Assembly: GCA_947259645.1 (NCBI GenBank)
Contig: CAMYND010000028.1
Location: forward strand, 1 to 33,707
DNA length: 33,707 nt
Source of the DNA: Thermodesulfovibrionia bacterium
GTDB taxonomy: Bacteria; Nitrospirota; Thermodesulfovibrionia; UBA6902
Direction: 5' to 3'
The notes beneath the pieces were generated by a model, which saw nothing but the letters and a program-made list of their open reading frames with translations, did not search any database and had not been told where the DNA came from. A program made the translations under genes and the position numbers. Positions 7,719-31,680 of this stretch are shown here, one piece after another (within the stretch, counting starts at the first letter, position 1; every line of letters starts with the position of its first letter).

Positions 7719-8489
7719 TCAGCTCCATTGCCAGCATTGAAGGTGCAAACCTTTGCCCCCCACAGCCAGCGCTCCCACATAGGCGATGCCGAGATTCAAG
7801 CCAATTAACTCCAAGTTGCCAACAGAGTACCGACGATGTTCAGTGTGACTGTCAAACTGTGGCGCCGCTGGCTCAAGTACAACATTAATATCCTTAAGAC
7901 CATTTACCAGACCCATCCCTCTTGCTTTCAGAACCGCCTCTTTTCGCGTCCAGTAGGCAAAAAAGAGACGGAACCGGTCATCTTCTGGCAATGCTCTAAG
8001 CTGTTCGCTCTCATGGGGAGAATAGAATCTTTCAGCTATCTCTTCCCATTGTAATTCCTCTCGGGGATATTCAACGTCAATCCCTATTCTTCTTTTTAAA
8101 CCAACAGCATACAACGCAAGGTCCCTGGTATGAGACAGGTTGAACGAGAGTTCGCTGTTGCTGAGAGCATTATGTAAAGAAGGTTTGCCATAAGGATTAT
8201 AGGAAAAATCAATTTTTGCCGGTCCTGTTCCTAGATAAAGGGCCAGAATATTTCTGAGAATTCCCCTCCTCGCAATAAACCGTTTCTGATCCCGCCTGAA
8301 ACGATACTTTTCAGCCCGGCTGATTTCATCAGGAGATAGAATCCCAGCGAGCACGTCAACTTGAGAATCGGGAAGGTCAAGTAATGCACGCCAGGCATGA
8401 ACCTCATCAGCTTGCAGTGACAAATCCTGAGGAGGTGCCAGCCATTCTTTCTTATGCAAGACTCCTGAATTCATGTCTTCCTCATTCAT
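7719..8489 (-). CDS. Sfp-type 4'-phosphopantetheinyl transferase
   Basis: A 256-residue enzyme that converts apo carrier proteins to holo form by moving phosphopantetheine from CoA to the carrier serine. Signatures are RRIGIDVEYP (Mg-binding Asp and Glu, about residues 131-140) and FFAYWTRKEAVLKARGMGL (the W-x-x-K-E-A motif, about 169-187). Size and motifs fit the Sfp/Gsp group that serves secondary metabolism. It is the last gene of the NRPS operon: its ATG overlaps the synthetase stop in an ATGA arrangement, so it is translationally coupled and almost certainly primes the three PCP domains upstream. Confidence 0.95.
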   Translation of the reverse strand: MNEEDMNSGVLHKKEWLAPPQDLSLQADEVHAWRALLDLPDSQVDVLAGILSPDEISRAEKYRFRRDQKRFIARRGILRNILALYLGTGPAKIDFSYNPYGKPSLHNALSNSELSFNLSHTRDLALYAVGLKRRIGIDVEYPREELQWEEIAERFYSPHESEQLRALPEDDRFRLFFAYWTRKEAVLKARGMGLVNGLKDINVVLEPAAPQFDSHTEHRRYSVGNLELIGLNLGIAYVGALAVGGKGLHLQCWQWS

Positions 8490-11400: not shown

Positions 11401-14400
11401 GCTCCGGCGTTGAATAGGGCACATTTTGCAGAGCAAAAGTTACCTGAAACAGAGGAGTCCGGCTCAAGTCACGCTCCGGCTTTATTGCCTCCACCAGTTT
11501 CTCAAAAGGTAAATCCTGATGTTCATAGGCACCAAGGAGCTTCTTTTTTACTTTTTGGAGCAGCTCCCGGAAAACAGGATTACCCGAAGTGTCAGTCCGC
11601 ATCACAAGGGTGTTTACAAACAAGCCTATCAGTCCCTCTAATTCAACATAGTTACGGTTAGAGATGGGAGAGCCGACGACAATATCATCCTGTCCGGTGT
11701 ACCGGTGAAGCAGGCACTGGAATGCTGCAAGTAATGTCATGAAGAGAGTCACTCCCTCATTTCTGCTTAGTCCCTTAAGCGACTCAACTAACTCTCCTGA
11801 CAGCTTAAACTGATGACTTCCTCCACGAAATGTCTGTACTTTAGGGCGGGGATGGTCTACTGGAAGCTCAAGTGTATTCATTCCCTTGAGTTCCTCCATC
11901 CAGTAAGTGAGTTGTTTCTCAAGAGTCTCACCGCTCATCCATTCCCTCTGCCACACCGAAAAGTCTGCATACTGAACCGGGAGTTCCTTTAGTGGTGAAA
12001 GACCGCCTTTTAAGAAAGAGTTATATAACATTGATATTTCCCGGAAAAGAATTCCCGCTGACCAACGGTCAAATATTATATGGTGTATTTTCAACAACAG
12101 GACATGCTCTTCCTTACCCTCCTTTACAAGTACGGCTTTCAGCAAAGGGCCGGATGAAAGATCAAAAGACTCTTCGCTTACAGCCCGCATTACCTCACGT
12201 TCTTTCTGCTTCCCCGCTTCTGTGCCAAGATCTATTTGCTGCAAAGTGAAAGTTGCCTCAGATACAATCTTTTGAATGGTTTGCTCATCCTGGACAGAAA
12301 ATGTTGTACGCAGTATTTCGTGACGATTTATTAATTCTTTAAAGCTCTGTTCAAGGGCTTCCTGATTCAACTCGCCAGTCAGCCTCATGGCAAGCATTTC
12401 ATCATAGGGAGAACTATCGGCCTCCATCTGATCAAGAAACCATAAACGCTGCTGGGAAAAAGAGAGGGGCAGGTCACTATCTCTGGAAACTGCCTTAATA
12501 CAGGAGCCTGTGAATCCGGAATCATCCACCCTTACTGATTCTATATACTCGGAAAGAGATCGAATAGTTGGCTTCTCAAATATAACCATCAAGGGCATTT
12601 GCACCTGAAATACACTGTTAATTCTTGAAACAAGCTGTGTAGCCATCAGGGAATGTCCTCCCAGGTGAAAAAAGTTTTCTGTAACCCCGATCTGTTTCCG
12701 GTGCAGCAAGTCCTGCCATATATGCTGCAAAGCTGTTTCTACGGAATTTTTAGGCTCCACGCGTGCGGTATTATCAGCTGCCTGCTCCTTTGAATAAAGG
12801 GACAGCTTCTGTCTGTCTACCTTCCCGTTGGGACTGAGGGGCAGTGAATCAAGAACAATAAAACTGGAAGGAATCATATATTCAGGCAGACTCTTTGAGA
12901 GTGATTCCTGCAGTGTACCCGTATTTATTGTTTGTCCCTGATTGGGCACAATAAAAGCAGTAAGTCCCTCTACAAAACCTGTCTGCTCTGTCGCTGAACT
13001 GTTTTCTACCTCTGCAATCTGCCCTGCTCTGTCATCCCCCTGAGCAAATATGTTATTGGCCATACCTTCTACATTTTGACCTTCTGGACTACTACTATTT
13101 AGCATGAGCCGGTCTGGTGCGCCAGTTACGAGGACTTCGACCTGCCGAACTTCAGGGTATGTCAAAAGTGTGTTTTGTATTTCACCGGTCTCAATACGGT
13201 ATCCCCTCACTTTTACCTGCTCATCATTACGTCCCAGAAATTCCAGATTCCCGTCATCCAGAAAACATACTATATCGCCGGTTTTATAGAGAACACCTTC
13301 TCCGTTTTTGTTGAAAGGATTCGGGATAAAGCGCTCCGCGGTCAGATCCGGCCGATTCAGGTACCCTAGAGAAATACCGGAACCACCAAGGTACAGCTCG
13401 CCGGGAATCCCCGGTGGAACCTGTCGGAGGTCCCCGTCCAGGACATAGACCTGTGTGTTCTCAATTGGCCGTCCAATTGGCACTGTAACAGTTGAATACT
13501 GTCGGCTGCAATCAAAGACAGTACTCCAGACGGTCGCTTCAGTAGGACCATACTCATTGAACAGTTGAGCTTCAGGGAGTGTATCTCGATGACATGCCAC
13601 CAGATCAGGCGTACATGCCTCACCAGCAACAACAACGGTCTGCAATGAGACAAGCATCTTCGCATGATACTGGAGCAATTGATCGTAAAGGGATGGTATG
13701 CTCAGCAGGTGCGTAATAAAATTTTCTGCAATCATGCCTGCAATATGATTAACGTCCCGAAATTGCTTCCTGTCAGGGATGAAAAGGCAGCCGCCTCTGC
13801 ACAGGGTGCCATATATTCCGGCAACCGAGCTGTCAAAGGAGATGCTCGACAGGAGCATGAAACGTTCAGGAACATTTCCATAATAACCGATTCTGGCTCC
13901 AGTAGAGTGTGCAAGATTCCCATGGCTGATCATGACGCCTTTTGGATTACCCGTTGATCCCGATGTGTAAATGATATATGCGATGCCATCAGGATTGGCA
14001 CTTTCTTCAGGGTTTGAGTCACTTAATTGACTGATCCCGTGTTTGTCATCATCTATAACGATCACCTTTAATTGAGCAGTCTGCAACTCCTGCTCAAGCT
14101 CATGATGGGTGAGAACTGTTTGAATATCAGCATCATCAATCATGTAGGCAATACGCTCCATGGGATATGACGGATCAAGAGGAACATATGCAGCTCCTGA
14201 TTTCAGTACTGCCAGTATGGCTGTTATCATCTCTATGGAGCGATCTATGTATATGCCTACTATGGTCCCCGGCCCTGCCTCGTTATCGGACAGATAGTTG
14301 GCCAGCTGATTTGCCCGGCGATTGAGTTCATCATAACTGAGACGCTCGTTCCCGTAAACAACGGCACCTTTTTCGGGTTCTTGCAAAGCCTGTTCTTCAA

Positions 14401-15793
14401 TCAGCTTGAGAACAGGCTTTGCCGGCAGGTTCTTCCCTGTGGTGCCACACCACTCAATTACAAGCTTCTGTTCCATTTCAGTTAATATGGGCAGGTCTCT
14501 AATCAATTGATCAGGCCTGGCAGCAAAAGATTGTAATAGTATCTCGACATGATTCAGCAGACGTGAGATACTTCCCTCATCAAAAAGGCTGCGATCATAA
14601 ACAGCTACAAGACGTAAACGCGGACCTGGCAGCGCCAGCAGAACCAGAGGATAGTTGCTTTGATCCCTGTAACTCACATCACTTATTTCAATTTCCGAGG
14701 GGAGACTTTCTGCTGCATTATCTACAGGCATGTTTTCAAAAACAAAAAGAGACTGGAATAACGGTACTCCAAGCGGAAGTTCGCTCCATTCATGGACTTT
14801 CAAAAGAGGAGTGTATTCAAACTCTCGTGCTTCAATCTGCTTCCCTTGCAGTTTCACAAGCCAGTTGGACAGTGAGTCTGTCGGCTCGACCGTCACCCTG
14901 ACCGGCAGGGTATTGATGAAAAGACCGACCATTCCCTCGACTCCTTCTAAAGATGCCGGCCGCCCTGATACTGTAGTACCGAACAGAATATCTTCTTCAC
15001 CCGTATACCTGTGGAGCAAAAGAGCCCATGCTCCCTGGATCATAGTATTAAGCGTCAATCGCTGTTTTTGGGCGGAACTTCTCAGTCCGGCCGTGGCCTG
15101 GCTGGAAAGTACCAGCTCTTTATGACTCTGTCCTTTGTCATCTCTCTGAAGTCGTTGGGTTACAAGAGGGGTTGGAGAAGAAATATTCTTTAGTTGTTCT
15201 TTCCAGAAATGTTCAGCCTCTGACAAGTCCTGCTTCTGAAGCCACGCAATATAATCACGAAATGGATTAGCAGCATGATCTTTGAGGTTTTCTCCCCGGC
15301 AGAGTGCATGGTAAAGTTCCCACACCTCCCGGAGAACGACTGTGGTAGACCAGCCGTCGCATAACATGTGGTGAAGGCTCCACACCCACTGATATGTATG
15401 TTCTTTGATTCGGAACAGCCTGAAGCGCATAAGAGGCGCCCTGTCCGGATCAAATCCGCATACCCGGTCATCATGCAGAAAGGTTTCCAGCCATTCAGCA
15501 AATTCACTATCTGATCTTTTCTCCAGTTGCTCTGTCTTCCAGTCGAGATCGACTTCACGGCGTACAACCTGTAGGGGTTCATCCAGTTCTTCCCAGAAAA
15601 AGGCTGTTCGTAATGACTGATGCCGCTGGACAACTGACTCCCATGAGCGCTGAAAGAGTTCAAGATCTAAGTTACCTGACAACCTGCATGTATACTGCGT
15701 GACATAAATCCCGGTTCCCGGCTCCTTGAGAGTGTGGAAAAGCATGCCTTCCTGAAGAGGTGACAGCGGATATATATCTTCTACATTTTCCAT
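8486..15793 (-). CDS. NRPS, modules 2 and 3: C-A-PCP-C-A-PCP-TE
   Basis: A 2435-residue dimodular synthetase. Module 2: C domain about 1-440 with intact HHMLCDG (141-147), A domain about 460-1000 and PCP serine near 1048 (HLGGHS). Module 3: C domain about 1110-1545 with HHIIFDR at 1237-1243 (consensus Gly replaced by Arg), A domain about 1565-2060, PCP serine near 2107, then a thioesterase about 2155-2435. My reading of the A-pocket gives DSALVAEVWK for module 2 (no confident amino acid) and DAFWIGGTFK for module 3 (the classical valine code). The module 2 A domain carries an extra low-complexity stretch, about residues 893-943, between motifs A8 and A9. The TE has Cys2229 where Ser is usual (GGYCFFGA), with Asp2256 and His2403 as likely partners. 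The first C domain begins VEDIYPLSPLQEGM, as expected after an epimerising module. The ATG lacks a Shine-Dalgarno and follows the upstream synthetase by 37 bp. Confidence 0.96.
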   Translation of the reverse strand: MENVEDIYPLSPLQEGMLFHTLKEPGTGIYVTQYTCRLSGNLDLELFQRSWESVVQRHQSLRTAFFWEELDEPLQVVRREVDLDWKTEQLEKRSDSEFAEWLETFLHDDRVCGFDPDRAPLMRFRLFRIKEHTYQWVWSLHHMLCDGWSTTVVLREVWELYHALCRGENLKDHAANPFRDYIAWLQKQDLSEAEHFWKEQLKNISSPTPLVTQRLQRDDKGQSHKELVLSSQATAGLRSSAQKQRLTLNTMIQGAWALLLHRYTGEEDILFGTTVSGRPASLEGVEGMVGLFINTLPVRVTVEPTDSLSNWLVKLQGKQIEAREFEYTPLLKVHEWSELPLGVPLFQSLFVFENMPVDNAAESLPSEIEISDVSYRDQSNYPLVLLALPGPRLRLVAVYDRSLFDEGSISRLLNHVEILLQSFAARPDQLIRDLPILTEMEQKLVIEWCGTTGKNLPAKPVLKLIEEQALQEPEKGAVVYGNERLSYDELNRRANQLANYLSDNEAGPGTIVGIYIDRSIEMITAILAVLKSGAAYVPLDPSYPMERIAYMIDDADIQTVLTHHELEQELQTAQLKVIVIDDDKHGISQLSDSNPEESANPDGIAYIIYTSGSTGNPKGVMISHGNLAHSTGARIGYYGNVPERFMLLSSISFDSSVAGIYGTLCRGGCLFIPDRKQFRDVNHIAGMIAENFITHLLSIPSLYDQLLQYHAKMLVSLQTVVVAGEACTPDLVACHRDTLPEAQLFNEYGPTEATVWSTVFDCSRQYSTVTVPIGRPIENTQVYVLDGDLRQVPPGIPGELYLGGSGISLGYLNRPDLTAERFIPNPFNKNGEGVLYKTGDIVCFLDDGNLEFLGRNDEQVKVRGYRIETGEIQNTLLTYPEVRQVEVLVTGAPDRLMLNSSSPEGQNVEGMANNIFAQGDDRAGQIAEVENSSATEQTGFVEGLTAFIVPNQGQTINTGTLQESLSKSLPEYMIPSSFIVLDSLPLSPNGKVDRQKLSLYSKEQAADNTARVEPKNSVETALQHIWQDLLHRKQIGVTENFFHLGGHSLMATQLVSRINSVFQVQMPLMVIFEKPTIRSLSEYIESVRVDDSGFTGSCIKAVSRDSDLPLSFSQQRLWFLDQMEADSSPYDEMLAMRLTGELNQEALEQSFKELINRHEILRTTFSVQDEQTIQKIVSEATFTLQQIDLGTEAGKQKEREVMRAVSEESFDLSSGPLLKAVLVKEGKEEHVLLLKIHHIIFDRWSAGILFREISMLYNSFLKGGLSPLKELPVQYADFSVWQREWMSGETLEKQLTYWMEELKGMNTLELPVDHPRPKVQTFRGGSHQFKLSGELVESLKGLSRNEGVTLFMTLLAAFQCLLHRYTGQDDIVVGSPISNRNYVELEGLIGLFVNTLVMRTDTSGNPVFRELLQKVKKKLLGAYEHQDLPFEKLVEAIKPERDLSRTPLFQVTFALQNVPYSTPELSGLTLEHIDIEYTRVKFDLEVYLDELEDGVQVLFVYNTDLFEPATIERLSQHYRVMLEGIVSDPERTLSELPMLTELEQHQLLVEWNDTGKDYPADKSVHQLFEEQVERTPDAVALICGNRNLSYGELNRRANQVAHYLMVLGVRSGTMVSICMERSIEMVVGILGILKTGAAYVPLDPSYPAERLFFMMEDCRTPMLLTQKSVLNSLPENRTRIICLDDDWEIMSEQSTENIKSNVVPDDLAYVMYTSGSTGKPKGVEVPHRGITRLVTGQDYLRFDAGQRFLLLAPISFDASTFELWGALLHGALCVVYTERYPSVALLGDIIKQHSISTLWLTSSYFNTIIDEAPKILAPVKQLITGGESLSATHIQKAMEILPHVYLVNGYGPTESTTFTCCYDISGSLKLPVLSIPIGKPISNTRVYLLDKHMRPVPVGVYGEIYIGGDGLALGYHNRPELTAEKFVANPFSDKSRARLYRTGDLARYLPDGNIDFSGRIDHQLKVRGFRIEPGEIEAVLGQHDGVGEAIVIAREDHPGDKRLIAFVVPNEMSGITTKQLRSDLKERLPDYMVPSFFVMLDSLPMTTSGKVDRKALPEPGLERTDLEEQFVAPRNELEKQLVRVWEKVLGIEQVGIRDNFFDLGGHSLLTVKLIAEVKKATGKDLTVIAVFKAPTIEQMAGAILKEGMPEISSSVIPIQSHGSRMPLFWTSGSFFMRHLEPDQPAYILISWEEHGFLPVFSTVEEIATHCIERLLAEQPEGPYMLGGYCFFGAIALEMARQLKKQGHEVPLLFLVDTSFRYLRNSARNHDPPGNDYTFKSRIIHHTDILNRLENTGKIAYMFKKIPPAVSWIKRKTVDRVISRIKIAVCRTILFFGHPVPRPLVSFYVWNLYADQLANNYAYQGYTGRVILFNSDRTDWSCHRDWLDLVEGEVTVHVVPEADHLGMIKEPYVGIWAKLMSKYLKEIQKKRSDRAL

Positions 15794-15830
15794 ATAATAT
15801 CAATCAGTTTATTTTTAATAATTATTAAAT

Positions 15831-18800
15831 CTATTCATAAGCTTTATCGGACTTATCCAGTAACCGGGACAATTTTGCCAGCTTTTCAGCATTAAGATTA
15901 GCCAGCGGAAAATCTGACGCACTCGGTTCATCACCTGACGGTTTCATGCAATGGTTTATCAGCCCTTGAAGTGACTGAAGAAATTTACGGGATATCCCCT
16001 GTATGGTTTCAGGCCTGTGTCGATCTGTGCTGAATGTCCAGTACGCTTCCAACTGATCATGAATTACGCAGGAGTTTATTTCTATCAGATGCGGCCGCTG
16101 CCCTTTTAGACCGCGGACTCCCTGCAGAAAACCATTTAATCGAATTCTGGATGATTGCCCGCTTAACTCGTGCAGCGTTCCCAGGTAGTTAAATATTACC
16201 TCAGCATCAGGCACCTGCTTCATTGCATCCCTTATGGTCCTGTTCTTACTGAGATAACGCAAAGGACTATATCCAAAACCCCTATTGGGAATGGCCCGTA
16301 TCTGTTCTTTAACCGACCTTATGATCTGTCCGGGCCCATGTTCATCCGGGAGGACAAGGCTTAGTGGATACAGGGAGGTGAACCACCCCAGGGTGTGATA
16401 TAGGCTAACTTCTTTAATAACACCCTCTCTGCCGTGTCCTTCTTTATCCACCCTTAATACAGAACTGCCGCTCCAGTTGCACAGCGTTTGCATGAGAGCT
16501 GCCAGCAGCATCTCATCAACGCTAATCCGGCTGGAGAGGTTGACTTTATGAAGGAGATCATGGGTAGCCTGAGGTTCTAATTTAACAGTAATAGTCTGGG
16601 CCGAAGACTCCAGGCCATTTCCTGGATGATCAATATCCCGGGGAAGAGATGCGGTCGGCGGCCTGACCTGACCTATCCAGTAATCAGCTTCCGATTCACA
16701 GGCCTGAGAATTAGCATACTGGACAAATTTTTCCGCCCATTCATTGAAAGGTGTTGTTTTACGTGAAAGCAGCGGAGTTTTTCCTTCGGTAAGATCGCGG
16801 CAAATGGTCTCCAGATCCTCCAGAATAATATACCATGATATGCCATCCACAACTAAATGATGAATGATAATCCCAAGCTGACATGGCTGGTCCCCGCCCC
16901 GGTCAAAGTACAGTGCCCGTATAAGAGGACCCTTTTGAAGGTCCAGCGATAAATGCGCCTGTTGCATGGAGCGGTCTATAGATGTTGCTTGTTCAGGCTC
17001 CGTCTGATCTGACAGATTGTAATATTCCAGGGCAAATGAATTGTCAGCATTACTAACGGCCTGTTCCCAGCCTGAGGCCTTCCTCTGGAAACGAAGGCGC
17101 AGGGAATCATGGTGAAGTATCAGATGCTTAAATGCCTGCTCCAGGATAGCTGGGGTTATTTCCCTGCTTAGATCCAGATTCTGCGCCATATTCCAGATGT
17201 GCGGCTCCGGTAAATCAAAATCAAAGAACCACTGCTGTATGGGTGTAAGCGGTACTGATCCCTTTCCCGGCCGCTGTTCATGGCCGGCTTCGATATTCGC
17301 AATCAATTCAGCAATCGTCTGATGCTGCAAAAGCAGACCGGGCGTAAATTCCAGCCCTGCATTTACTGACCGGGCAGCAATCTGAATGCTCATGATCGAA
17401 TCTCCGCCCAAATCAAAAAAATTATCATGTATACCGACCTGATTAAGTCCAATAACGTCCGCCCAGATTCGGGCCAGAATTTTTTCATTATTTGTACGTG
17501 GTTCCTCATAAGCGTTATCGAGATCCGGCCTTGCCGAATCTGGTTCAGGAAGTGCTTTTCGATCAATCTTTCCATTGGGTGATAAGGGCAGTTCATCCAG
17601 CATCACAAATACCGACGGTATCATATAATCAGCCAGCTTCTTCTTCAACTCTTTACGTAATTCATCTATTGATGGGGCTTCTGTTTGCGTAACGAGATAT
17701 GCAACAAGATGTTTATCTCCTGAATTATCTTCTCGAGCTACAACCACACATTGTTTCACCCCTGGTTCATCTCCAAGTACGGCTTCAATCTCTCCAAGTT
17801 CAATACGTATACCGTGGATTTTTACCTGAAAGTCGTTGCGACCCAGATATTCGATATTTCCATCGGGCAAATAACGGCAGAGATCACCAGTTTTGTAAAG
17901 TCGTGCTCCCTGCCTGTCAGAAAAGGGATCAGGAATAAATCTCTCTTTGGTCAGTTCCTGCCTGTTAATATAACCAAGAGCCACCTGTACACCGCCGATA
18001 TGCAGTTCACCGGGCACTCCGACCGGAACAGGATGCATATGATGGTCCAGAATAAACATCCGGGTGTTGGCGACAGGTCTGCCAATTGGGACTATCTTAA
18101 GGTCACTCCCTGACTGACATTTCCAATAGGTTACATCTACGGCTGCTTCTGTAGGTCCATATAAATTGTGCAGCTCTGCTTTCATTTTAGAGAAGAACTG
18201 TTCCTGTAACGCATAAGGCAGGGCCTCACCGCTGCAAATTACACGTTTCAATGAGTCACAGCTGCCAGCTCCCCGGTCCTCAAGAAAATAATGAAGCATG
18301 GACGGCACGAAATGAAGAGTAGTAACTCCCTGTTCACAAATCACGTTAACAAGATAATCAGTGTCCCGGTGGCCCCCCGGACGGGCAACTACTAATCGTG
18401 CCCCGGTCAGCAGGGGCCAGAAAAACTCCCATACCGAGACATCAAAACTGAAAGGTGTTTTCTGCAGAACAACATCTTCAGAAGTCAGACTATATTCATC
18501 CTGCATCCACAACAGACGATTGCAGATTCCACGATGGCTGTTCATTACACCCTTTGGCCTGCCTGTGGAGCCTGAAGTGAAAATGACATATGCCATATTT
18601 TCAGGGGTTGTAATACACTCAGGATTATTATCTATGTTTATAGTGTTGTCACCCGGTTGAATCAAAGAGCACGAGTCAGAAAGAAGCTCATCAAGACAGA
18701 GCACCTGCAGGTTGTCCTGTGGAATAGTTCTGATCAACTTTCTTTGGACCAGAACGACAGAGACCTTTGAATCCTCCAGCATATAATCAAGCAGATCTTT

Positions 18801-20426
18801 GGGATAGTTCGGATCAAGTGGGACATAGGCCCCGCCGGCCTTGAGTATGGCGTACAGTCCAATGACCATCTCTATGGAACGGTCTGCGCAGATTCCAACC
18901 GGTACATCAGGCCCTGTCCCCAGTGTACGAAGATAATGTGCGAGTCTGTTTGCCTGAACGTTCATTTCCCTGTAAGTCAGACTCTCACCTTCAAATATTA
19001 ACGCAACCTCATCGGGTGTACGTTCTACCTGGGCTTCAAAGAGCTGATGAAGGCATACGTCTTCAGGATAATCTACCCTTGTATCATTCCATGTATCAAA
19101 CTGACGCGTCTCATTATCTGTTAATAGCGTCAATGCCGAAATCATCTGATCAGGATCGGCCAGCAGCATGTCAAGGAGGTGGAAAAAGTGTCCAACGGCT
19201 TTCCCGCGAAGATCCTGATCAAAGACCTCGCAGTTGAAATCAAAGTGAAATTGAAAACTGCCGGACGAATCGAAATCATGTACCTGGAGCTGCAGGGCAT
19301 GCCCCATATCTGTATGCCCGGGATGAAGCCATGTAGACTGCATCGGCATACCGCAAAAATCCGGAAATGCAACATTGATATAGTTAAGAACCACTGAATA
19401 GGACTTGTGGGTCACGGCATTGCTGCAGCCCGGATGTGCGTAGCGAAAAAAATCATAGGTTTCTGAAGTAATGGATTTAACCAAACTGCGAAAAGTCTCC
19501 CCAGGCTCAATGTTGATTCCCAGCGGAAACATTTCAATGAACAGCCCGACAGTTTCCTGAAAAGTTGCAGTTGGACGGTTGTGGGAAGGTGTGCCTATAA
19601 CTAATTCTGAATTGCCGCTTATACGATACAGGTACGCAAATAGCAAGGCTGAAAGGATATTAAAAAGCGAAAGGTGCGGGCTAAAAGAACGAAAATCTTT
19701 TTCTGTTGCCAATCCGCGCAGTTTCTCCGATCGTTCCCGGCCAAGATCGTAATATACCCTTTCAGTGAGTGTTGAATGAGCTGACGGAGTGTTGCCATAC
19801 AATTCAAGAGGTGCTGGAGCAGAACCATTCCTCCCCTGCCAGTAGGCTAGAGCTTTTCTGTGCTCAGTTGATTCCTGAAATTTGACCTCATAGTTCTGGT
19901 ACTCAAGATATGATGGTAACTCAGGAGCATCTGCCAGACGGCCATTAAGCGCTAATTGATAGAACTCGGCCATTCGTCTGTAAATGACAGCGCAGGACCA
20001 CCCATCAGTAATCAATTGGTGCTGATTGATATACCAGACATATTCACCTTCTCTAAGCTTGATTAGCACACTGTCAAACAACCGCTCTTTAAGATCAAAG
20101 TTCAGGATAGAACGCGACTTCAACCAGGATTTAATGTTACCATGATGAGCAGAATCCTTTGAGAAGTCTATGAACTCCAAATCAAATGTTAATGTTTCCC
20201 TGAAATTTTGCAGGGGAACATCATCCTTGTCATTAATGACAGTTCGAAGGGAATCGCTCCTGTCAATGAGAGTTTGAAAGGCGTCACGGAATGCTTCCGG
20301 CTCTATATTGCCCTGGATAAAAAAGGCGAGGGCCATATTATAAAGCGGTAGATGAGGATTAAGCTTCTGTCCGGTCCAGATGTGAAATTGACTGTTTGTG
20401 AGATTAGATAATTTAAGTTTGTTCAA
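15831..20426 (-). CDS. NRPS, module 1: C-A-PCP-E
   Basis: A 1531-residue monomodular synthetase, first gene of the operon. Domains: C about 1-435, A about 455-965, PCP with serine 1010 (FFDLGGDS), and an epimerisation domain about 1055-1490. The E domain shows PLTPIQQWFF, HHLVVDG (1189-1195), TLGWFTSLYPL and the diagnostic FNYLG. The A-pocket reads DVWHISLVDK, one change from the EntF serine code, so it should load L-Ser and pass on D-Ser. The starting C domain has HQLITDG at 136-142, with Gln137 in place of the second, catalytic His. Being a starter C domain, it might acylate the serine or be inactive. The only in-frame start is a TTG at 20426, since an in-frame stop lies just upstream. The short helical C-terminus (EKLAKLSRLLDK) could dock the next synthetase. 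Confidence 0.95.
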   Translation of the reverse strand: MNKLKLSNLTNSQFHIWTGQKLNPHLPLYNMALAFFIQGNIEPEAFRDAFQTLIDRSDSLRTVINDKDDVPLQNFRETLTFDLEFIDFSKDSAHHGNIKSWLKSRSILNFDLKERLFDSVLIKLREGEYVWYINQHQLITDGWSCAVIYRRMAEFYQLALNGRLADAPELPSYLEYQNYEVKFQESTEHRKALAYWQGRNGSAPAPLELYGNTPSAHSTLTERVYYDLGRERSEKLRGLATEKDFRSFSPHLSLFNILSALLFAYLYRISGNSELVIGTPSHNRPTATFQETVGLFIEMFPLGINIEPGETFRSLVKSITSETYDFFRYAHPGCSNAVTHKSYSVVLNYINVAFPDFCGMPMQSTWLHPGHTDMGHALQLQVHDFDSSGSFQFHFDFNCEVFDQDLRGKAVGHFFHLLDMLLADPDQMISALTLLTDNETRQFDTWNDTRVDYPEDVCLHQLFEAQVERTPDEVALIFEGESLTYREMNVQANRLAHYLRTLGTGPDVPVGICADRSIEMVIGLYAILKAGGAYVPLDPNYPKDLLDYMLEDSKVSVVLVQRKLIRTIPQDNLQVLCLDELLSDSCSLIQPGDNTINIDNNPECITTPENMAYVIFTSGSTGRPKGVMNSHRGICNRLLWMQDEYSLTSEDVVLQKTPFSFDVSVWEFFWPLLTGARLVVARPGGHRDTDYLVNVICEQGVTTLHFVPSMLHYFLEDRGAGSCDSLKRVICSGEALPYALQEQFFSKMKAELHNLYGPTEAAVDVTYWKCQSGSDLKIVPIGRPVANTRMFILDHHMHPVPVGVPGELHIGGVQVALGYINRQELTKERFIPDPFSDRQGARLYKTGDLCRYLPDGNIEYLGRNDFQVKIHGIRIELGEIEAVLGDEPGVKQCVVVAREDNSGDKHLVAYLVTQTEAPSIDELRKELKKKLADYMIPSVFVMLDELPLSPNGKIDRKALPEPDSARPDLDNAYEEPRTNNEKILARIWADVIGLNQVGIHDNFFDLGGDSIMSIQIAARSVNAGLEFTPGLLLQHQTIAELIANIEAGHEQRPGKGSVPLTPIQQWFFDFDLPEPHIWNMAQNLDLSREITPAILEQAFKHLILHHDSLRLRFQRKASGWEQAVSNADNSFALEYYNLSDQTEPEQATSIDRSMQQAHLSLDLQKGPLIRALYFDRGGDQPCQLGIIIHHLVVDGISWYIILEDLETICRDLTEGKTPLLSRKTTPFNEWAEKFVQYANSQACESEADYWIGQVRPPTASLPRDIDHPGNGLESSAQTITVKLEPQATHDLLHKVNLSSRISVDEMLLAALMQTLCNWSGSSVLRVDKEGHGREGVIKEVSLYHTLGWFTSLYPLSLVLPDEHGPGQIIRSVKEQIRAIPNRGFGYSPLRYLSKNRTIRDAMKQVPDAEVIFNYLGTLHELSGQSSRIRLNGFLQGVRGLKGQRPHLIEINSCVIHDQLEAYWTFSTDRHRPETIQGISRKFLQSLQGLINHCMKPSGDEPSASDFPLANLNAEKLAKLSRLLDKSDKAYE

Positions 20427-24677: not shown

Positions 24678-26792
24678 ATGAAAACAAGGTTCGCTTTTTT
24701 ATCATTTCTGATATTACTGCTGGGTAGTACCGCATTAGCCGACATAAAAGAATACAACCTTGTTATCCGCTATGATGCGGTAAATCTCACGGGACGCAGC
24801 GTACAGGCCATGACGATTAATGGCGCTATTCCAGGCCCGTCCCTCAGGTTCCGGGAAGGCGATACAGCCAAAATCCATGTTCGCAATGAGATGGATGTCG
24901 AGACATCAATTCACTGGCACGGGATTCTTCTGCCAAATCTGCAGGATGGTGTCCCGTACGTGACTACTCCTCCGATCATGCCGGGGACGACTTTTACGTA
25001 TGAGTTTCCTTTGATACATTCAGGTACATACTGGTATCACTCTCATACAGGTCTTCAGGAGCAGCGGGGAGTATATGGTTCTATAGTCATCGAACCTCAG
25101 ATGCCATCAATAACAACGGATATTGACCATGTTGTCGTTATTTCCGACTGGACTGATGAAAATCCTGATGAAGTACTTCGGACGCTCAAAAGTGGAAATG
25201 ATTACTACTCACTGAAAAAAGGTGCCATGCAGAGCCTCTACGGGGCAATAAAAGCCGATGCTTTACCAGATGTCCTCATGCGTTCATGGGATCGCATGCC
25301 ACCCATGGACATTTCAGATATAGCCTATGATCGTTTTCTGGTAAACGGGACACAATCAGCATCACTGAACGCACATACGGGGCAGAAGTTACGACTGCGT
25401 ATTATCAACGCTTCTGCATCAACATACTTCTACCTCCAGTATTCCGGCGGGAATATGCAGGTCATTTCTGCTGACGGCGTTAATGTAAAGCCGGTTCATC
25501 TGGAACGCTTTCTGATTGCAGTAGCCGAGACATACGATGTTGTAATAACAGTGCCTGATAACAAGGCATATGAATTTCGCGCCACTGCCCAGGACGGTTC
25601 AGGGTACACATCGCTCTTTATCGGAATGGGGGAACAGGTGGCAGCACCTGATATCCCGAAACCGAATCTCTATAAAATGCACAGCGGCCACGACATGTCC
25701 GGTGCTAACATGAGCAGTATGATGAAACATAATGGCAGCATGTCCCAAAACGATATGAAAAATATGCCTCAGCAGGAAAGCAGCATGTCAGAAAGTGACA
25801 TGAAAGGCATGGTGGAGCAGGAAAGTAACATGAGCATGTCAATGACTGAACGTCCCCCGGCTCCCTATGATAACCTCAGGTCTCCTGTATCTACAGCCCT
25901 CTCGAAAGACCTTCCTCTCCGGGAAATCAGGCTTGAGCTCACAGGTGATATGGAACGGTATGTCTGGTCAATGAATGGTAAAACCCTCAACGAAGCTGAT
26001 CTGATCAGGATTAAAAAGGGAGATAATGTTCGGTTTGTTCTGGTCAACAAAACGATGATGCACCATCCCATGCACCTCCATGGACATTTTTTCAGGGTTG
26101 TTAACAAACACGGAGACTATTCTCCTCTAAAGCATACCTTTGATGTTCCTCCTCTCGGGACTCAGGTTATTGAGTTTTATGCCAATGAGGAGAAGGACTG
26201 GTTCTTTCACTGTCATGTCCTGTATCACATGAAGGCAGGCATGGCCCGTATCGTGCATTATGAGGATTCAGAACTGGATCCGCTGATAGCTCCCATCAGA
26301 AAAAATCTTTTTAAAGAGCACTGGTACTTCTGGGCTGATGCTTCGTTCCTGACTCAGATGACAGAAGGACAACTCGTCGCTGCGGATACACGCAATACAT
26401 TCAGAGGAACATGGGAGGCAGGTTGGGATGAGGACTTTGAGGCGGTGTTTACCTATGAAAGATATTTTAACCGCTTTTTTCAGGCCATTGCCGGTGGGGT
26501 ATTGACTGATGGTGAACAGGAAGACAGGGGAATCATCGGATTCAGATATCTTCTTCCTTTTTTAGTAGAAAGTTCTGTCTGGGTTGATACCGAAGGGGAC
26601 GCGCGTATCACTCTTGATAAATCGGTCCACCTTACAGACAGGCTCTATGCATTTGGTGAGTTTCAGTATGACAGCGAGTCAAAAGAAGAGTGGCTAATCG
26701 GAGCAGGCCTGAAACTGAGCAGGCACTTCTCTCTTATAGCCCAGCATCATTCAGAGTACGATGCGGGCGTAGGCATAAATATCCGGTATTAA
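24678..26792 (+). CDS. CopA-type multicopper oxidase fused to a CopB-like outer-membrane barrel
   Basis: A 704-residue exported protein (signal peptide about 1-21). Cupredoxin domains carry all four copper motifs: HWHG at 79-82, HSH at 121-123, HHPMHLHGHFF near 461 and HCHVLYHMKAGM near 511. Between the second and third cupredoxins lies a Met/His/Ser-rich stretch, about residues 333-393, typical of PcoA/CopA Cu(I) oxidases. After the last motif CopA proteins normally end near 560-600. Here about 160 more residues follow, with alternating beta strands (FRGTWEAGWDEDFEAVFTYE, FLVESSVWVDTEGDARITLD) and an aromatic C-terminus (GVGINIRY), resembling the CopB/PcoB barrel. It likely detoxifies periplasmic Cu(I) while anchored in the outer membrane. 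GGAGCAGGA precedes the ATG. Confidence 0.92.
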   Translation: MKTRFAFLSFLILLLGSTALADIKEYNLVIRYDAVNLTGRSVQAMTINGAIPGPSLRFREGDTAKIHVRNEMDVETSIHWHGILLPNLQDGVPYVTTPPIMPGTTFTYEFPLIHSGTYWYHSHTGLQEQRGVYGSIVIEPQMPSITTDIDHVVVISDWTDENPDEVLRTLKSGNDYYSLKKGAMQSLYGAIKADALPDVLMRSWDRMPPMDISDIAYDRFLVNGTQSASLNAHTGQKLRLRIINASASTYFYLQYSGGNMQVISADGVNVKPVHLERFLIAVAETYDVVITVPDNKAYEFRATAQDGSGYTSLFIGMGEQVAAPDIPKPNLYKMHSGHDMSGANMSSMMKHNGSMSQNDMKNMPQQESSMSESDMKGMVEQESNMSMSMTERPPAPYDNLRSPVSTALSKDLPLREIRLELTGDMERYVWSMNGKTLNEADLIRIKKGDNVRFVLVNKTMMHHPMHLHGHFFRVVNKHGDYSPLKHTFDVPPLGTQVIEFYANEEKDWFFHCHVLYHMKAGMARIVHYEDSELDPLIAPIRKNLFKEHWYFWADASFLTQMTEGQLVAADTRNTFRGTWEAGWDEDFEAVFTYERYFNRFFQAIAGGVLTDGEQEDRGIIGFRYLLPFLVESSVWVDTEGDARITLDKSVHLTDRLYAFGEFQYDSESKEEWLIGAGLKLSRHFSLIAQHHSEYDAGVGINIRY
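25737..25826 (+). repeat. Tandem 45-bp repeat encoding Met-rich units in the copper oxidase
   Basis: Two adjacent 45-bp units encode SMSQNDMKNMPQQES and SMSESDMKGMVEQES. They lie in the Met-rich linker and probably expand Cu(I) binding capacity. Confidence 0.8.
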
Positions 26793-26891: not shown

Positions 26892-27488
26892 TTACTTGCC
26901 CATCAAGAGCGGGTCCTGGTAAATCATCAGATGGGACCAGGGGGTTCCATCGTACATAATATATGAACCGAACTTTCCGGGATACGTTGGAAATTTAGCT
27001 GACTTTGCATCGAAGGGCCAGAAAATCAGCCAGTGGGCCGGTTCCGTGACCCTCTTTGTTCCAGGTTCATGCCAGTCCATATATGTCTTGTTATCCTTCT
27101 CCCAGCGCAGCGCACCTCGGGCCATATACGCGAATCCTGGTGCTTTATTCGTAGGGCCGGGCTTACCGGTGATAAAGTCATTCCACCACTGAAGCGCCGC
27201 CTCATCCATACATGATGGTACCGGCACATCTATCTTGTCAAGATCAGAATAACAGGTAAATCCGTTACTTCCGGTTATAACTTTCCTGTGTTTACCGTCC
27301 CAGTTCACGATTATAATGCTGGCATCATCTGAAATAGCAGGTGGGGCCGCGCTCCGGGCCAGTTTGATCTGCTCATTATCACTCATGTACAATACGGCCG
27401 GTTTAGCAGTCTCGTGCGTCGCCTCTGACTCAGTCTCAAATGCAATTAATAGAGTTATGGCAAAAAATAAAATTGCAGCTTGTTTCAT
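26892..27488 (-). CDS. Exported protein of unknown function
   Basis: A 198-residue protein with an N-terminal signal peptide (ILFFAITLLIAFETESEA, about residues 6-23). The mature part has two Cys (FTCYSDLD and PVPSCMDE), several Trp, and a central PGPTNKAPGFAYMARGALRW stretch, ending in a Trp/Tyr-rich region (HWLIFWPFDA, SHLMIYQDPLL). I do not recognise a characterised domain. It resembles uncharacterised periplasmic proteins and may bind a ligand or metal. Last of the minus-strand run after the selenoprotein fusion, cytochrome c and Met-rich protein, and convergent with the copper oxidase. Confidence 0.78.
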   Translation of the reverse strand: MKQAAILFFAITLLIAFETESEATHETAKPAVLYMSDNEQIKLARSAAPPAISDDASIIIVNWDGKHRKVITGSNGFTCYSDLDKIDVPVPSCMDEAALQWWNDFITGKPGPTNKAPGFAYMARGALRWEKDNKTYMDWHEPGTKRVTEPAHWLIFWPFDAKSAKFPTYPGKFGSYIMYDGTPWSHLMIYQDPLLMGK

Positions 27489-28064: not shown

Positions 28065-28562
28065 TCAATGATTCTCACTATGTTGAACCTCACCTGAAGC
28101 TGAAAGGGATTGAATGTAGTTGACAATATCCCAAATTTCATTCTCGCTTAAAATATTTTTCCACGCTGGCATCTCTCCCTTGCCATTATCTATTTTCCAT
28201 GCAAATTCAGCATCAGAGTGCGTCCCCGCCATTTGTCTTAAGTTGGCAGGCTTGATAGTAAACGCTTTAGCAGCTGCACCGTCCCCCTCGGCATTTATCC
28301 CATGGCAAGACACACAATTTAGTAAGAAAAGGTCGTTTCCGCGCTTTATCGACTCAGCTGAAGATAGTACCGGGTTTCTTTCCTTCGCGGCATCTTTGGG
28401 GACAAGCCACTCTTTACCTGTTTCATTCTGTACTGTTCCAAGAGACTCATCTTCATCCGGCAGTTCACCTGCGGGGCTTCTTAATAAAATAAATGCAAAG
28501 GAAACAATAATAAACAGTGCCATTGCATTGACAAAGACACTTTCAAGTTTCTTTGTGTCCAC
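28065..28562 (-). CDS. Membrane-anchored c-type cytochrome
   Basis: A 165-residue protein with one N-terminal membrane anchor (SVFVNAMALFIIVSFAFILL) and a single haem c motif, CVSCH (about residues 83-87). The likely distal Met is in GKGEMPAWKN. The layout fits small cytochrome c domains of the cbb3 CcoP/nitrite reductase-accessory type. I chose the GTG at 28562: it follows the stop of the selenoprotein fusion by 1 bp and has GGAG 8 nt upstream. The ATG at 28613 would force a 50-bp overlap into the preceding gene. It probably passes electrons to or from the upstream membrane selenoprotein. Confidence 0.88.
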   Translation of the reverse strand: MDTKKLESVFVNAMALFIIVSFAFILLRSPAGELPDEDESLGTVQNETGKEWLVPKDAAKERNPVLSSAESIKRGNDLFLLNCVSCHGINAEGDGAAAKAFTIKPANLRQMAGTHSDAEFAWKIDNGKGEMPAWKNILSENEIWDIVNYIQSLSASGEVQHSENH

Positions 28563-28563
28563 C

Positions 28564-30036
28564 TTAAATGCTCCGATAGAGTGCTGCCATAAAGAGAAAA
28601 GCACAGAAAACACTCACATAGTAAAATGATTTATCCATGTTCAGCCTCATTACATAAGTAAGGGCTCTCTGTTTCTTCTCATATAACCTGTGCTTCTGTA
28701 TGATTTTTAAAATAAGACTGGTCCCAATGATATTGGAGAGAACACCTATTGTCAGAAAAAAGTCCTGAAAATGCCCGAGAAAGACAACTGTTGCCGGGAT
28801 CGCCATGAGCGGCATAACATTGGCCATATACTGCGCGCAACATGCGACGACAGAAGTCGAGGACAATCCTCCTGCTACAGCCACTGCCGAACCAGCCCTC
28901 CCTGACAGCTTCCGCACCCTCACCACTTCCCGAAGGTATGTGTACAGGCCAACCTGAATTCCAAAACCCGTGCCAAGCATCAATATCCAGTACCAGACTA
29001 GCTTGAACTGATCGATTGAGTGAGCAAATGTTGCGGTTACAGAGGATATCAGGAAATATACTGTAAAAAGTGAAACTGCTGCAGTTATGCCCCAGATTAT
29101 CGGCCTGCTGTTTAATCGCTTATTGTTGCTGTCAGCATGACTCAGGTCCCCTGATGCATTTGATCCCTGTATAATTTCGTTGCATATCGTTTCCCCCTCC
29201 ATGGACGGTTTCACTCTATTCACCTGAACTGGCGCAGAATAATTGTCATAAGTCTCTCGCTTCCATCGAAAGGGAATATCAACAATTTCACCAGGAATTT
29301 GAATCGCATAGAGAGCGTTAAAGGCCTCCATAAGTACGGCCCTCTGTTGAAGAATATGATCAGGCTCTCCAAGAGGATGACCAAATGGCCACTTCAGGAA
29401 AATAGACCTCGGTGGTTTAACCTTTTCTGTAAAGTTTCTTACAATCGATATCCCGATCGTCGAGATCCCTGCTTTTTCAATCTCCCGCTGTATCAGCCCG
29501 ACGGACTGATTGCAGATACCTCAGCCAGGTGTGAGCAATACAACATCCACATTATTTTCTTTCAGTCTTTTTGCAACTTCCCGCGATGTGTCGTGAATAA
29601 GCGTCTGAACATGGATACCTTTGATATGCCCCATAAAGCCATAATGTTTCTCTGCCAACTGCCCAATAAATCCTTCAGACGCCAACTCTCTAAGCCTTTC
29701 AATTGGGAACAAGATATTCAGATCTTTATCAGCATCTGAATGGTCATAGTAATCATGGGTTATCATAAGATCACTCAGAGGTCTTTCTGCATCTATCTCT
29801 CTGAACGTAGCATCACCCTGCGGGTCGTCCATGTCAAATGGGACCTGATCCCTTTGGTGGATTCCTCCCGTAGTGACAAGCGCGACTTTTGAGTCGGACA
29901 AAAGCTTTGTTACCGGTATCCATGGAATATCAGTTGACTCAACTGCATGGAATAACTCACTGAAAATGCCGGCGAGAGACGGATACCGTGTCAAGAATTT
30001 TGCAACTGTCCTGCGTTTTAGTCTTGCCAGATTCAT
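28564..30036 (-). CDS. Selenoprotein: GrdB-like reductase domain fused to a membrane domain, UGA-Sec at codon 172
   Basis: A single frame of 490 residues when the TGA at 29521-29523 is read as selenocysteine. Residues 1-171 match the glycine/betaine/sarcosine/D-proline reductase selenoprotein B family, ending DVVLLTPG. Next come Sec172-Gly-Ile-Cys, then QSVGLIQREIEKAGISTIGI, the family continuation. The bridge of 63 codons between the UGA and the next ATG has no stops and reads as family sequence (VKPPRSIFLKWPFGHPLGEP). Residues about 305-490 add four to six membrane helices with a Cys pair (STSVVACCAQYMANVMPL). Start: ATG at 30036 with AAGGA 8 nt before. TGA works as a true stop in other genes here, so general recoding is unlikely. 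Sec-x-x-Cys suggests thiol/selenol redox. The partner is unknown; a cytochrome c gene follows by 1 bp. Confidence 0.88.
29492..29510 (-). promoter_or_regulatory. Candidate bacterial SECIS hairpin
   Basis: On the minus strand the RNA from 10 nt past the UGA reads AUCAGUCC-GUC-GGGCUGAU, an 8-bp stem with one U-G pair and a GUC loop (or 7 bp with a five-base loop). The loop G lies 19 nt after the UGA, inside the range known for bacterial SECIS elements, and the G-U loop dinucleotide matches the SelB-binding consensus. The codons also make sense as protein, as expected for a bacterial SECIS within a coding region. Confidence 0.75.
29521..29523 (-). other. UGA codon read as selenocysteine
   Basis: In-frame TGA inside the conserved Pro-Gly-U-Gly-Ile-Cys motif. 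Family homologues carry Sec or Cys here. The frame continues for 318 codons downstream. Confidence 0.85.
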
Positions 30037-30485
30037 TTGATCATCCTTAGCTTATATTTTTTATGCCACAGATAATGTACCAATAAAAAACGAATGAAAC
30101 ATGAAGAACTTTTGAATAAATTGTGAATTCATAAGAATTGACCAGTTGCGAAGCAAATTGATTGATCATCATAATCACAAGAATTTTATTGTTCTTAATG
30201 TCGATAACCTTAATCGTCTCTGGTATTTTGACAAATAAAGCGAATCATGAGTTCATATTTTATTCATATTTATTGTTTTAAATAGAGAGTATGGAGGACC
30301 TGATCTGAAGATCTTAAAAATCATGACCTTTAGCATGGCTATATTTCTCCTCTTTGCGGTCTTTCTCTCTTCATCCACCACTATAAAATCGCCAGGAATG
30401 AGAGAACTGCTATTAGCACTGACAAATAGATCTGGAGTTGATGCTTGAGCAATAAAATTAACAGTATCAGATAAAGGAGGAGGAA
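30037..30485. other. Divergent intergenic region, selenoprotein and DsbA-like genes
   Basis: About 450 bp of AT-rich DNA. On the plus strand a perfect TTGACA at 30228-30233 precedes TATTTT/CATATT candidates at a spacing longer than ideal (20-22 bp). A GGAGGA at 30293 marks a possible small ORF, listed separately. No structured RNA gene is recognised. Confidence 0.35.
30305..30448 (+). CDS. Possible small membrane or signal-like peptide
   Basis: From a CTG placed 6 nt after GGAGGA the frame gives 47 residues: KILKIMTFSMAIFLLFAVFL, a basic N-terminus and a hydrophobic helix, then SSSTTIKSPG and a short polar tail. The first ATG in frame is at 30323 but is 24 nt from the ribosome site. It lies 37 bp before the DsbA-like gene, so it might be a leader peptide or small membrane protein. 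A CTG start makes this weak. Confidence 0.28.
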   Translation: MKILKIMTFSMAIFLLFAVFLSSSTTIKSPGMRELLLALTNRSGVDA

Positions 30486-31211
30486 ATGATCAAAAAGAAA
30501 AATTTAGTCGTTCTGGTATTACTCACAATCTCTCTATTAGTAGCAGGTTGCGCGGACAAGGAAAAGCTTGACAATATTAGTCAATCGCTCATGGATATTA
30601 ACGATACCCTGAAAAATATTGAATTAAAATTGGACAAACTCCCCAAAACTGCCGCAGCTGCACCGCAAAGGCCAACGGTAGACTACAACAAAGTACATAA
30701 CATGCCGATAGGAACTTCAGCGACAATAGGTGTTAAAAATGCTGCTGTTACTGTCGTTGAATTTTCTGATTTTCAGTGTCCCTATTGCGCACGTTTCGCG
30801 CCTACAATCAAGGAAGTGTTAAAGGCATATCCCAACGAAGTACAATTTGTATATAAGGATTTCCCGCTCTCTTTTCATAAACAGGCGAAAAACGCGGCCA
30901 AGGCAGCACGCGCGGCAGGGGAACAGGGAAAGTACTGGGAAATGCATGATCTGATCTTTGAGAAATACTCCACGGTGAACGAGGAAATGTTCAAGGAATT
31001 TGCGGCAAAACTAAGCCTGGACATGAATAAATTTAATGCCGACTTCAGCAGCAATAAATATGATGCCCTAATTCAGCAGGACATTAACCTCGGCAGGCAG
31101 GCAGGAGTTACCGGCACTCCATCTCTCTTTATGAACGGGAAGAGAATGCAAAGAAGATCTTTTGATGATTTCAAGGTAGCTATAGACGCCATATTAAAGC
31201 AGAAAAAGTAA
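30486..31211 (+). CDS. DsbA-family thiol oxidoreductase lipoprotein
   Basis: A 241-residue lipoprotein: lipobox LLVAGC with Cys22, then a short coiled coil (LDNISQSLMDINDTLKNIELKLDKL cut into heptads, about residues 28-52), then a DsbA/BdbD-like thioredoxin domain. The active site is CPYC at 98-101 (DFQCPYCARF). The cis-Pro loop is GVTGTPSLFMNGK. This is the short DsbA_4/Thioredoxin_4 type. Attached to a membrane, it would oxidise or isomerise thiols in the periplasm. AGGAGGAA lies directly upstream of the ATG. It is divergent from the selenoprotein fusion and may act in the same thiol redox circuit. A strong terminator follows. Confidence 0.93.
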   Translation: MIKKKNLVVLVLLTISLLVAGCADKEKLDNISQSLMDINDTLKNIELKLDKLPKTAAAAPQRPTVDYNKVHNMPIGTSATIGVKNAAVTVVEFSDFQCPYCARFAPTIKEVLKAYPNEVQFVYKDFPLSFHKQAKNAAKAARAAGEQGKYWEMHDLIFEKYSTVNEEMFKEFAAKLSLDMNKFNADFSSNKYDALIQQDINLGRQAGVTGTPSLFMNGKRMQRRSFDDFKVAIDAILKQKK

Positions 31212-31341: not shown

Positions 31342-31680
31342 ATGACTGATATGAATAAACCATTTACTCTGATAATAATTCTGACATTGATTTTCCTTCA
31401 TGCGGGAACATATGACTCGTCTGCTGAGCGTAAGAACAATCGAAATATTCCCTATGGCGATTACTGTTCACATGTTAGTAATTATGGAACACATCACGGC
31501 AAACTTACCAATAATCAGGTCCAGATAGCATTGAACCATTATCTCGGTAAAAAGGGGCTTGATTTTGAAATCATCAACGGCAAGGGCAGATTTGTTAAGG
31601 TACTCATTAAAGACAATAATAAAGCAGTAGACACTATTATTTTCGATCGCAACAACGGGCGTATACGATCTATTAAGTAA
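31342..31680 (+). CDS. Small exported protein of unknown function
   Basis: A 112-residue protein with an N-terminal signal peptide (FTLIIILTLIFLHAGTYDSSA, about residues 8-28). The mature region begins with basic/Asn residues and contains DYCSHVSNYGTHHGKLTNNQ, then a beta-rich end (GRFVKVLIKDNNKAVDTIIF) with a PepSY-like look. One Cys and a His pair could bind metal. AGGATTACCGAG precedes the ATG. No family is recognised with certainty; similar small exported proteins occur near metal-resistance genes. Confidence 0.75.
   Translation: MTDMNKPFTLIIILTLIFLHAGTYDSSAERKNNRNIPYGDYCSHVSNYGTHHGKLTNNQVQIALNHYLGKKGLDFEIINGKGRFVKVLIKDNNKAVDTIIFDRNNGRIRSIK

Follow-up and report, generated by a model that had tools for sequence, protein, structure and literature searches.

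A Thermodesulfovibrionia bacterium (G000, Nitrospirota; GCA_947259645.1; genome of 3.41 Mb, 99.55% complete) carries a PrdB-like frame which stops at a TGA and is followed by a membrane protein in the same frame, and this raises the question of whether the locus encodes one protein or two, and what for. The window, i.e. the whole stretch of DNA that was analysed, is the 33,707 nt of contig CAMYND010000028.1. A sequence-only reading had proposed that the two apparent frames are a single one, that the UGA is decoded as selenocysteine (Sec), and that an ordinary gene finder would separate the parts.

The frame and its UGA codon

The minus-strand frame 30036-28564 has 490 codons, from an ATG at 30036 to a TAA at 28566-28564, and its sole interruption is the TGA at codon 172 (29523-29521). 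The table 11 gene call does split it, into proteins of 171 and 255 aa, and the joined protein is hidden in this way: the ATG called for the membrane gene (29331, residue 236), 63 codons past the TGA as the sequence-only reading had it, lies inside the conserved selenoprotein domain. The features of the locus are the following.

28564..30036, minus strand: whole fused open reading frame, 490 aa with Sec172 (TGA), from the reading of the frame
30044..30048, minus strand: Shine-Dalgarno sequence AAGGA 5' of the fusion ATG (duplex of -5.8 kcal/mol)
29242..30036, minus strand: PrdB-like selenoprotein domain of the A clade, residues 1-265 (TIGR04483, Pfam GRDB, identity to G017, tree)
29521..29523, minus strand: TGA, predicted selenocysteine 172, motif UGIC (UxxC) (TGA kept in relatives, sel genes)
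29492..29510, minus strand: SECIS-like hairpin, beginning 10 nt past the TGA (shuffles and covariation)
29119..29241, minus strand: linker, residues 266-306 (41 residues), which resembles no homologue (comparison with relatives)
29212..29214, minus strand: possible internal in-frame start, GTG (V275) (Shine-Dalgarno of -6.8 kcal/mol; the product would be a separate membrane protein of 216 aa)
29183..29185, minus strand: out-of-frame ATG behind a strong Shine-Dalgarno sequence, GGAGGGGG (-11.2 kcal/mol; reading frame of only 17 aa)
28567..29118, minus strand: membrane domain, residues 307-490, predicted to form five transmembrane (TM) helices, N-in/C-out (AlphaFold2 pLDDT 85.6; 46% to G019; 32-sequence alignment)
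28831..28842, minus strand: intramembrane C399-C400-A401-Q402 (alignment and homologous loci)

Five of the window's 1,524 TGA codons precede open frames of 318 codons or more, so the length of the frame past the TGA is, alone, only suggestive. The TGA is taken as a Sec codon because the homology to relatives runs through it: the fusion is 62% identical to the protein of G017 over residues 1-266 and 59% identical to that of G018 over residues 1-276, and homologues extend about 90-120 conserved residues beyond the TGA. In a search of 47 genomes at the level of the order, 19 matched the fusion query (one of them, G019, with the membrane half only), and the TGA is present in every match which covers codon 172. 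At the level of the phylum, PrdB-like genes occur in 35 of 396 genomes, all full-length ones having the TGA. In other phyla (350 and 395 genomes), most PrdB-like matches have the TGA and some are stop-free; the latter are presumably Cys forms. The paralogue on contig C4 of the host genome likewise carries the TGA.

The host genome contains selA, selB, selC and selD, the four genes that the sequence-only reading had proposed to look for. The tRNA-Sec (selC) scores 72.4 bits, over the gathering cut-off, SelB exceeds its own cut-off, and SelA adjoins SelB. The host SelD (L171; G000 contig C94:2026-2940) has an in-frame TGA of its own, predicted to encode Sec.

The SECIS-like hairpin of the window has a z-score of -3.1 against synonymous-codon shuffles which keep the peptide, 1% of the shuffles being equally stable. 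The mean z-score over 39 genes is -1.59, for genes which are related and hence non-independent. In 38 aligned genes, 91.4% of the cells of the helix pair, compared to at most 44% when the helix is slid, and compensatory changes occur at three pairs (e.g., CAG for Gln and CTG for Leu versus CAA and TTG). Rfam models, including SECIS, gave no match to this region.

The codon is thus almost certainly read as Sec, judging from conservation and coding signals, and the motif Sec-Gly-Ile-Cys is as first described. One opposing idea is that the TGA is a real stop, which ends a truncated PrdB-like protein upstream of an unrelated membrane gene. The standard gene call does yield two genes, but in all relatives conserved sequence runs on for more than 90 residues beyond the TGA, and this, the hairpin and the complete Sec machinery leave the idea hardly any credit. 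The sequence-only reading would have been contradicted by homologues for which the TGA position is a true C-terminus and the membrane part is always a separate gene; the first half of this does not hold, the homologues running some 90-120 residues further.

The two halves and their junction

The N-terminal half matches TIGR04483 (PrdB) over residues 23-260 with an E-value of 1e-59 and 201.8 bits, below the equivalog cut-off for PrdB (at least 300 bits). It also matches Pfam GRDB (PF07355; E 1.5e-11, 44.7 bits versus a gathering cut-off of 22 bits), over the C-terminal part of the profile only (212-345). These matches bear out the kinship with GrdB and PrdB that had been proposed, and on sequence criteria the N-terminal half is assigned to the known group of UxxC PrdB-like selenoproteins rather than to true PrdB. 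A profile search of the host genome for PrdA (TIGR04480), run without a positive control, gave no match. The tree of 38 relatives divides into two main clades: clade A (UGICNQS) includes the window gene and those of G017, G018, G305 and G290, and clade B (TUVICNQS) includes the host's own paralogue. A sequence search of the PDB gave no match, and no PrdB-like proteins were found in a scan of viral contigs. Another PrdB-type selenoprotein, which has a PUPxC motif and whose C-terminal domain is soluble and some 180 residues long, was seen at L188, L194, L195, L196 and L198.

The C-terminal half is 46% identical to a standalone protein of 192 aa from G019, and the standalone proteins begin only near residue 290-310 of the fusion. 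The AlphaFold2 model obtained from 32 sequences (pLDDT 85.6) has five TM helices, and C399-C400 lies midway along the third (TM3), in line with the intramembrane cysteine pair first noticed; the predicted N-in/C-out topology fits the charge pattern. Pfam and NCBIfam gave no family match to this domain, nor did a fold search of the PDB with the model. Scanning 84,980 species genomes yielded 213 relatives from both archaea and bacteria, and the best 80 of them were retained. This half represents a separate 5-TM family without a name, CC-[A/T/S]-H, whose members are either fused to a periplasmic domain or followed by one. The cysteine pair is invariant across the 32-sequence alignment, and is a trait of the membrane family, not particular to the fusion. 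The fusion has the CC in TM3 and the overall homology, and differs at the His: at position 402, two residues past the second Cys, all 80 loci compared (the best 80 of 213 relatives) have His, and the fusion has Gln. The membrane site may therefore be altered or weakened. In a model of the full fusion, the PrdB part, from an alignment without relatives, has a pLDDT of 58.6, which makes it unusable for contacts between the halves.

The proteins of G017 and G018 end with ...RWKRETYNDHLINEL... and ...RWKRETYDDHLLNEL..., respectively, and the window sequence departs from this A-clade tail directly after RWKRETYD, so that the junction falls near residue 265. Through single-base indels in the linker, the fusion would become two ordinary genes: with one such indel, PrdB would end at about 271-297 aa, like its relatives. 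An assembly error is nevertheless judged unlikely, since no other recognised gene of the window is broken, not even the two of 2435 and 1531 aa, so indel errors are rare here. A chimeric contig is unlikely too, because the membrane half has the same neighbours as in G019, the gene of a small periplasmic protein (p31342) and that of a histidine kinase. The single fused frame very probably exists in the real organism.

It is quite possible that the fusion is recent and natural, or that the gene has a double product. The locus might make a Sec protein and a separate membrane protein initiated at the internal GTG (29214), the joined frame being read-through of recent or incidental origin, or the result of an indel in the assembly. 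The ribosome-binding signal of GTG275, the strong one before the out-of-frame ATG at 29185 (possibly the relic of an ancestral start), the normal length that one indel would restore to PrdB, and the membrane part being unjoined to PrdB in 80 of 80 loci (best 80 of 213) and in the other genomes searched all speak for it. On the other side, with no stop in frame, any ribosome which inserts Sec has to translate the membrane domain as well, and the indel version has the intact neighbouring genes against it. We give the two-product idea about one chance in four.

Rarity of the fusion and metal genes

Besides the window, no sequence with both halves was found in the searches of 47, 396, 350 and 395 genomes. 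The halves are joined in none of 22 genomes which carry the membrane domain, and no PrdB gene lies within 5 kb of the membrane domain at any of 80 loci (best 80 of 213 relatives). The fusion, known from one assembly only, therefore stands alone in some 1,100 searched genomes and among 80 close homologues of the membrane domain (best 80 of 213). A conserved architecture is not supported: the fusion occurs in one genome, and in every other genome examined the membrane part is separate or fused to other metal-binding parts. Other long PrdB frames (G1029, G655, G534, G901 and others) proved to be either non-coding upstream extensions in high-GC DNA or the type with the soluble C-terminal domain of about 180 aa, and a 1002-aa frame of G964, once a candidate for the same fusion, is 307 aa on rereading.

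In the window, the fusion has the following neighbours.

28065..28562, minus strand: membrane-anchored cytochrome c, with a GTG start 1 nt past the fusion stop (TAA G GTG)
26892..27488, minus strand: conserved periplasmic protein (p26892), 64% to a protein of the G019 membrane-domain locus
24678..26792, plus strand: CopA-type multicopper oxidase (TIGR01480, E 2e-133, 446 bits versus a cut-off of 479)
31342..31680, plus strand: small periplasmic protein (p31342), conserved beside the G019 membrane-domain gene (synteny)

The position of its GTG puts the cytochrome c in the same operon as the fusion. The membrane half keeps the synteny of G019, with p31342 and the histidine kinase adjoining and p26892 nearby; the usual periplasmic partner gene of the membrane domain was not found in the window. 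A gene at 30486-31211, divergent from the fusion, encodes a DsbA-like lipoprotein with a CPYC motif, weakly related to the Rcas_1661 (seleno)lipoprotein family. The window also holds large NRPS genes, for products of 2435 and 1531 aa, together with a gene like those of phosphopantetheinyl transferases (7719-20426, minus strand) and a Group II intron domain (RF01999; 22631-22749, plus strand).

In other genomes, the membrane domain keeps company with metal-binding parts. In L114 and L095 it forms the C-terminal end of a copper-type P-type ATPase that contains HMBD (and, in L114, also YHS), it is preceded by YHS and HMBD domains in L078, L106 and L110 (Gallionella-type genomes) and by a YHS domain in L070, and it adjoins CopC and a DsbD/CcdA-type protein in L045. 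A Desulfobacterota genome (G1143) has both proteins separately in one operon:

L192 4027-9512, minus strand: protein with HMA and the membrane domain, periplasmic partner, CopA-like ATPase, methyltransferase and A-clade PrdB selenoprotein

Its CopA-like ATPase has two HMA domains (TIGR01511, 617 bits), and the ATG of the PrdB gene overlaps the stop of the class-I methyltransferase gene (TGATG). The methyltransferase is 33% identical to the one which precedes PrdB-A in G017 and G018; a gene of this class stands directly 5' of PrdB-A repeatedly (L031 9397-10089, L032 4709-5389, L192 4851-5552). Because this operon holds the two proteins separately with a CopA-like pump, the fusion can be seen as a "Rosetta stone" for a pairing which other genomes encode in two genes.

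Several loci which carry only one of the halves have further genes in common. The PrdB-A loci of G017 and G018 share ArsR (~71-73%) and an SQR-like protein (71%) with the membrane-domain locus of G019; G290 shares a sensor kinase, a 924-aa NapH-like protein and DsbC_N with L045/L046; and G197 shares a Met/His-rich periplasmic protein and DsbC_N with L044/L045. PrdB-A also adjoins CusA/CzcA RND pumps in G1052, G1092 and G1010, and CDF proteins in G197 and G199, and many loci (e.g., L160, L164-L166, L170) have no metal gene near PrdB-A. The PrdB-A loci were surveyed by sample, and the association with metal genes is a lead, not a statistic.

Function and comparison with known systems

The context (fusions to copper ATPase, YHS, HMBD and HMA parts, the CopC neighbour and the Desulfobacterota operon) supports the metal handling towards which the sequence-only reading had leaned; its other suggestion, a selenol reductase, found no such support. 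A copper or heavy-metal pathway is somewhat favoured for the fusion. The fuller reading has about an even chance of being right: a selenoenzyme tethered to the membrane, made by Sec insertion at UGA-172, which serves to handle copper or a similar soft metal. Reading of UGA-172 as Sec would give a single polypeptide made of the PrdB-like domain, the 41-residue linker and the 5-TM domain, with the Sec domain presumably in the cytoplasm, tethered beside the membrane cysteine pair. Sec172 and Cys175 might reduce a thiol-, glutathione- or metal-bound species, or set it free, for the membrane site to take up or pass on. This specific chemistry, from a cytosolic reductant to the membrane site, is tentative. 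The coupled cytochrome c gene and the nearby multicopper oxidase agree with a periplasmic copper and redox locus.

The main functional rival to metal handling is a thiol relay: like DsbD/CcdA, the protein would pass electrons across the membrane without transporting metal, Sec-Cys drawing on a cytosolic reductant and the TM3 cysteine pair feeding periplasmic cytochrome c, multicopper oxidase or DsbA-like proteins. The cytochrome c gene coupled downstream, the DsbA-like lipoprotein upstream, and the DsbC_N, DsbD/CcdA-type and TlpA-like genes near homologues would suit such a relay, but vicinal Cys-Cys-X-His in one helix resembles a metal site more than a CxxC relay, and homologues bear HMA, YHS, HMBD and Cu-ATPase parts; we consider it possible, though the less likely side of the question. 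It is rather unlikely that the membrane half has been degenerating since the fusion and is a mere anchor for the selenoenzyme: the loss of a His present in 80 of 80 homologues (best 80 of 213) and the usual partner gene not found in the window would fit, whereas the domain is otherwise still 46% identical to its homologue and retains the invariant residues. An improbable extension of the metal-handling reading is that the Sec side chain of the PrdB-like domain stands in for the missing His and itself donates Cu(I), or another soft metal, to the cysteine pair or accepts it from there, the large UxxC group outside D-proline fermentation serving soft-metal handling generally.

PrdB-like UxxC selenoproteins occur in large numbers in the sea and are frequent in several phyla, but we know of no role for them outside D-proline reductase. 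The fusion and the Desulfobacterota operon, which has the same two proteins and a CopA-like pump, suggest copper or soft-metal handling for this widespread family. The Sargasso Sea and GOS surveys count 42 and 235 sequences of the Sec-UxxC PrdB group, among the commonest marine selenoproteins, and, in the accessible text, label them proline reductase (PMC1088965, PMC2398784). A PrdB fusion is absent from the fusion list of the GOS paper as available in excerpt (PMC2398784), and neither that list nor the accessible parts of a 2026 review (PMC13188914) has a PrdB-membrane fusion or a copper link. A literature search, whose coverage mostly leaves out subscription journals, found no PrdB-membrane fusion.

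Besides these marine proteins, three known systems come close. The PrdB subunit of D-proline reductase (26 kDa; TIGR04483, PF07355) has the same domain size and order, UxxC motif and TGA-encoded Sec; unlike PrdB, the fusion scores 202 bits versus a cut-off of 300, is joined to a membrane domain and has copper-type surroundings. TsoB, a rhodanese/DsbD fusion-like selenoprotein (NF045694, listed in PMC13188914), by its name also combines a selenoprotein with a DsbD-like membrane part, with other domains. The unnamed CC-[A/T/S]-H 5-TM proteins, standalone or fused to copper P-type ATPase, YHS, HMBD or HMA, are 30-46% identical to the membrane half and have the same invariant CC, whereas in the fusion the partner is a selenoenzyme and the His has become Gln.
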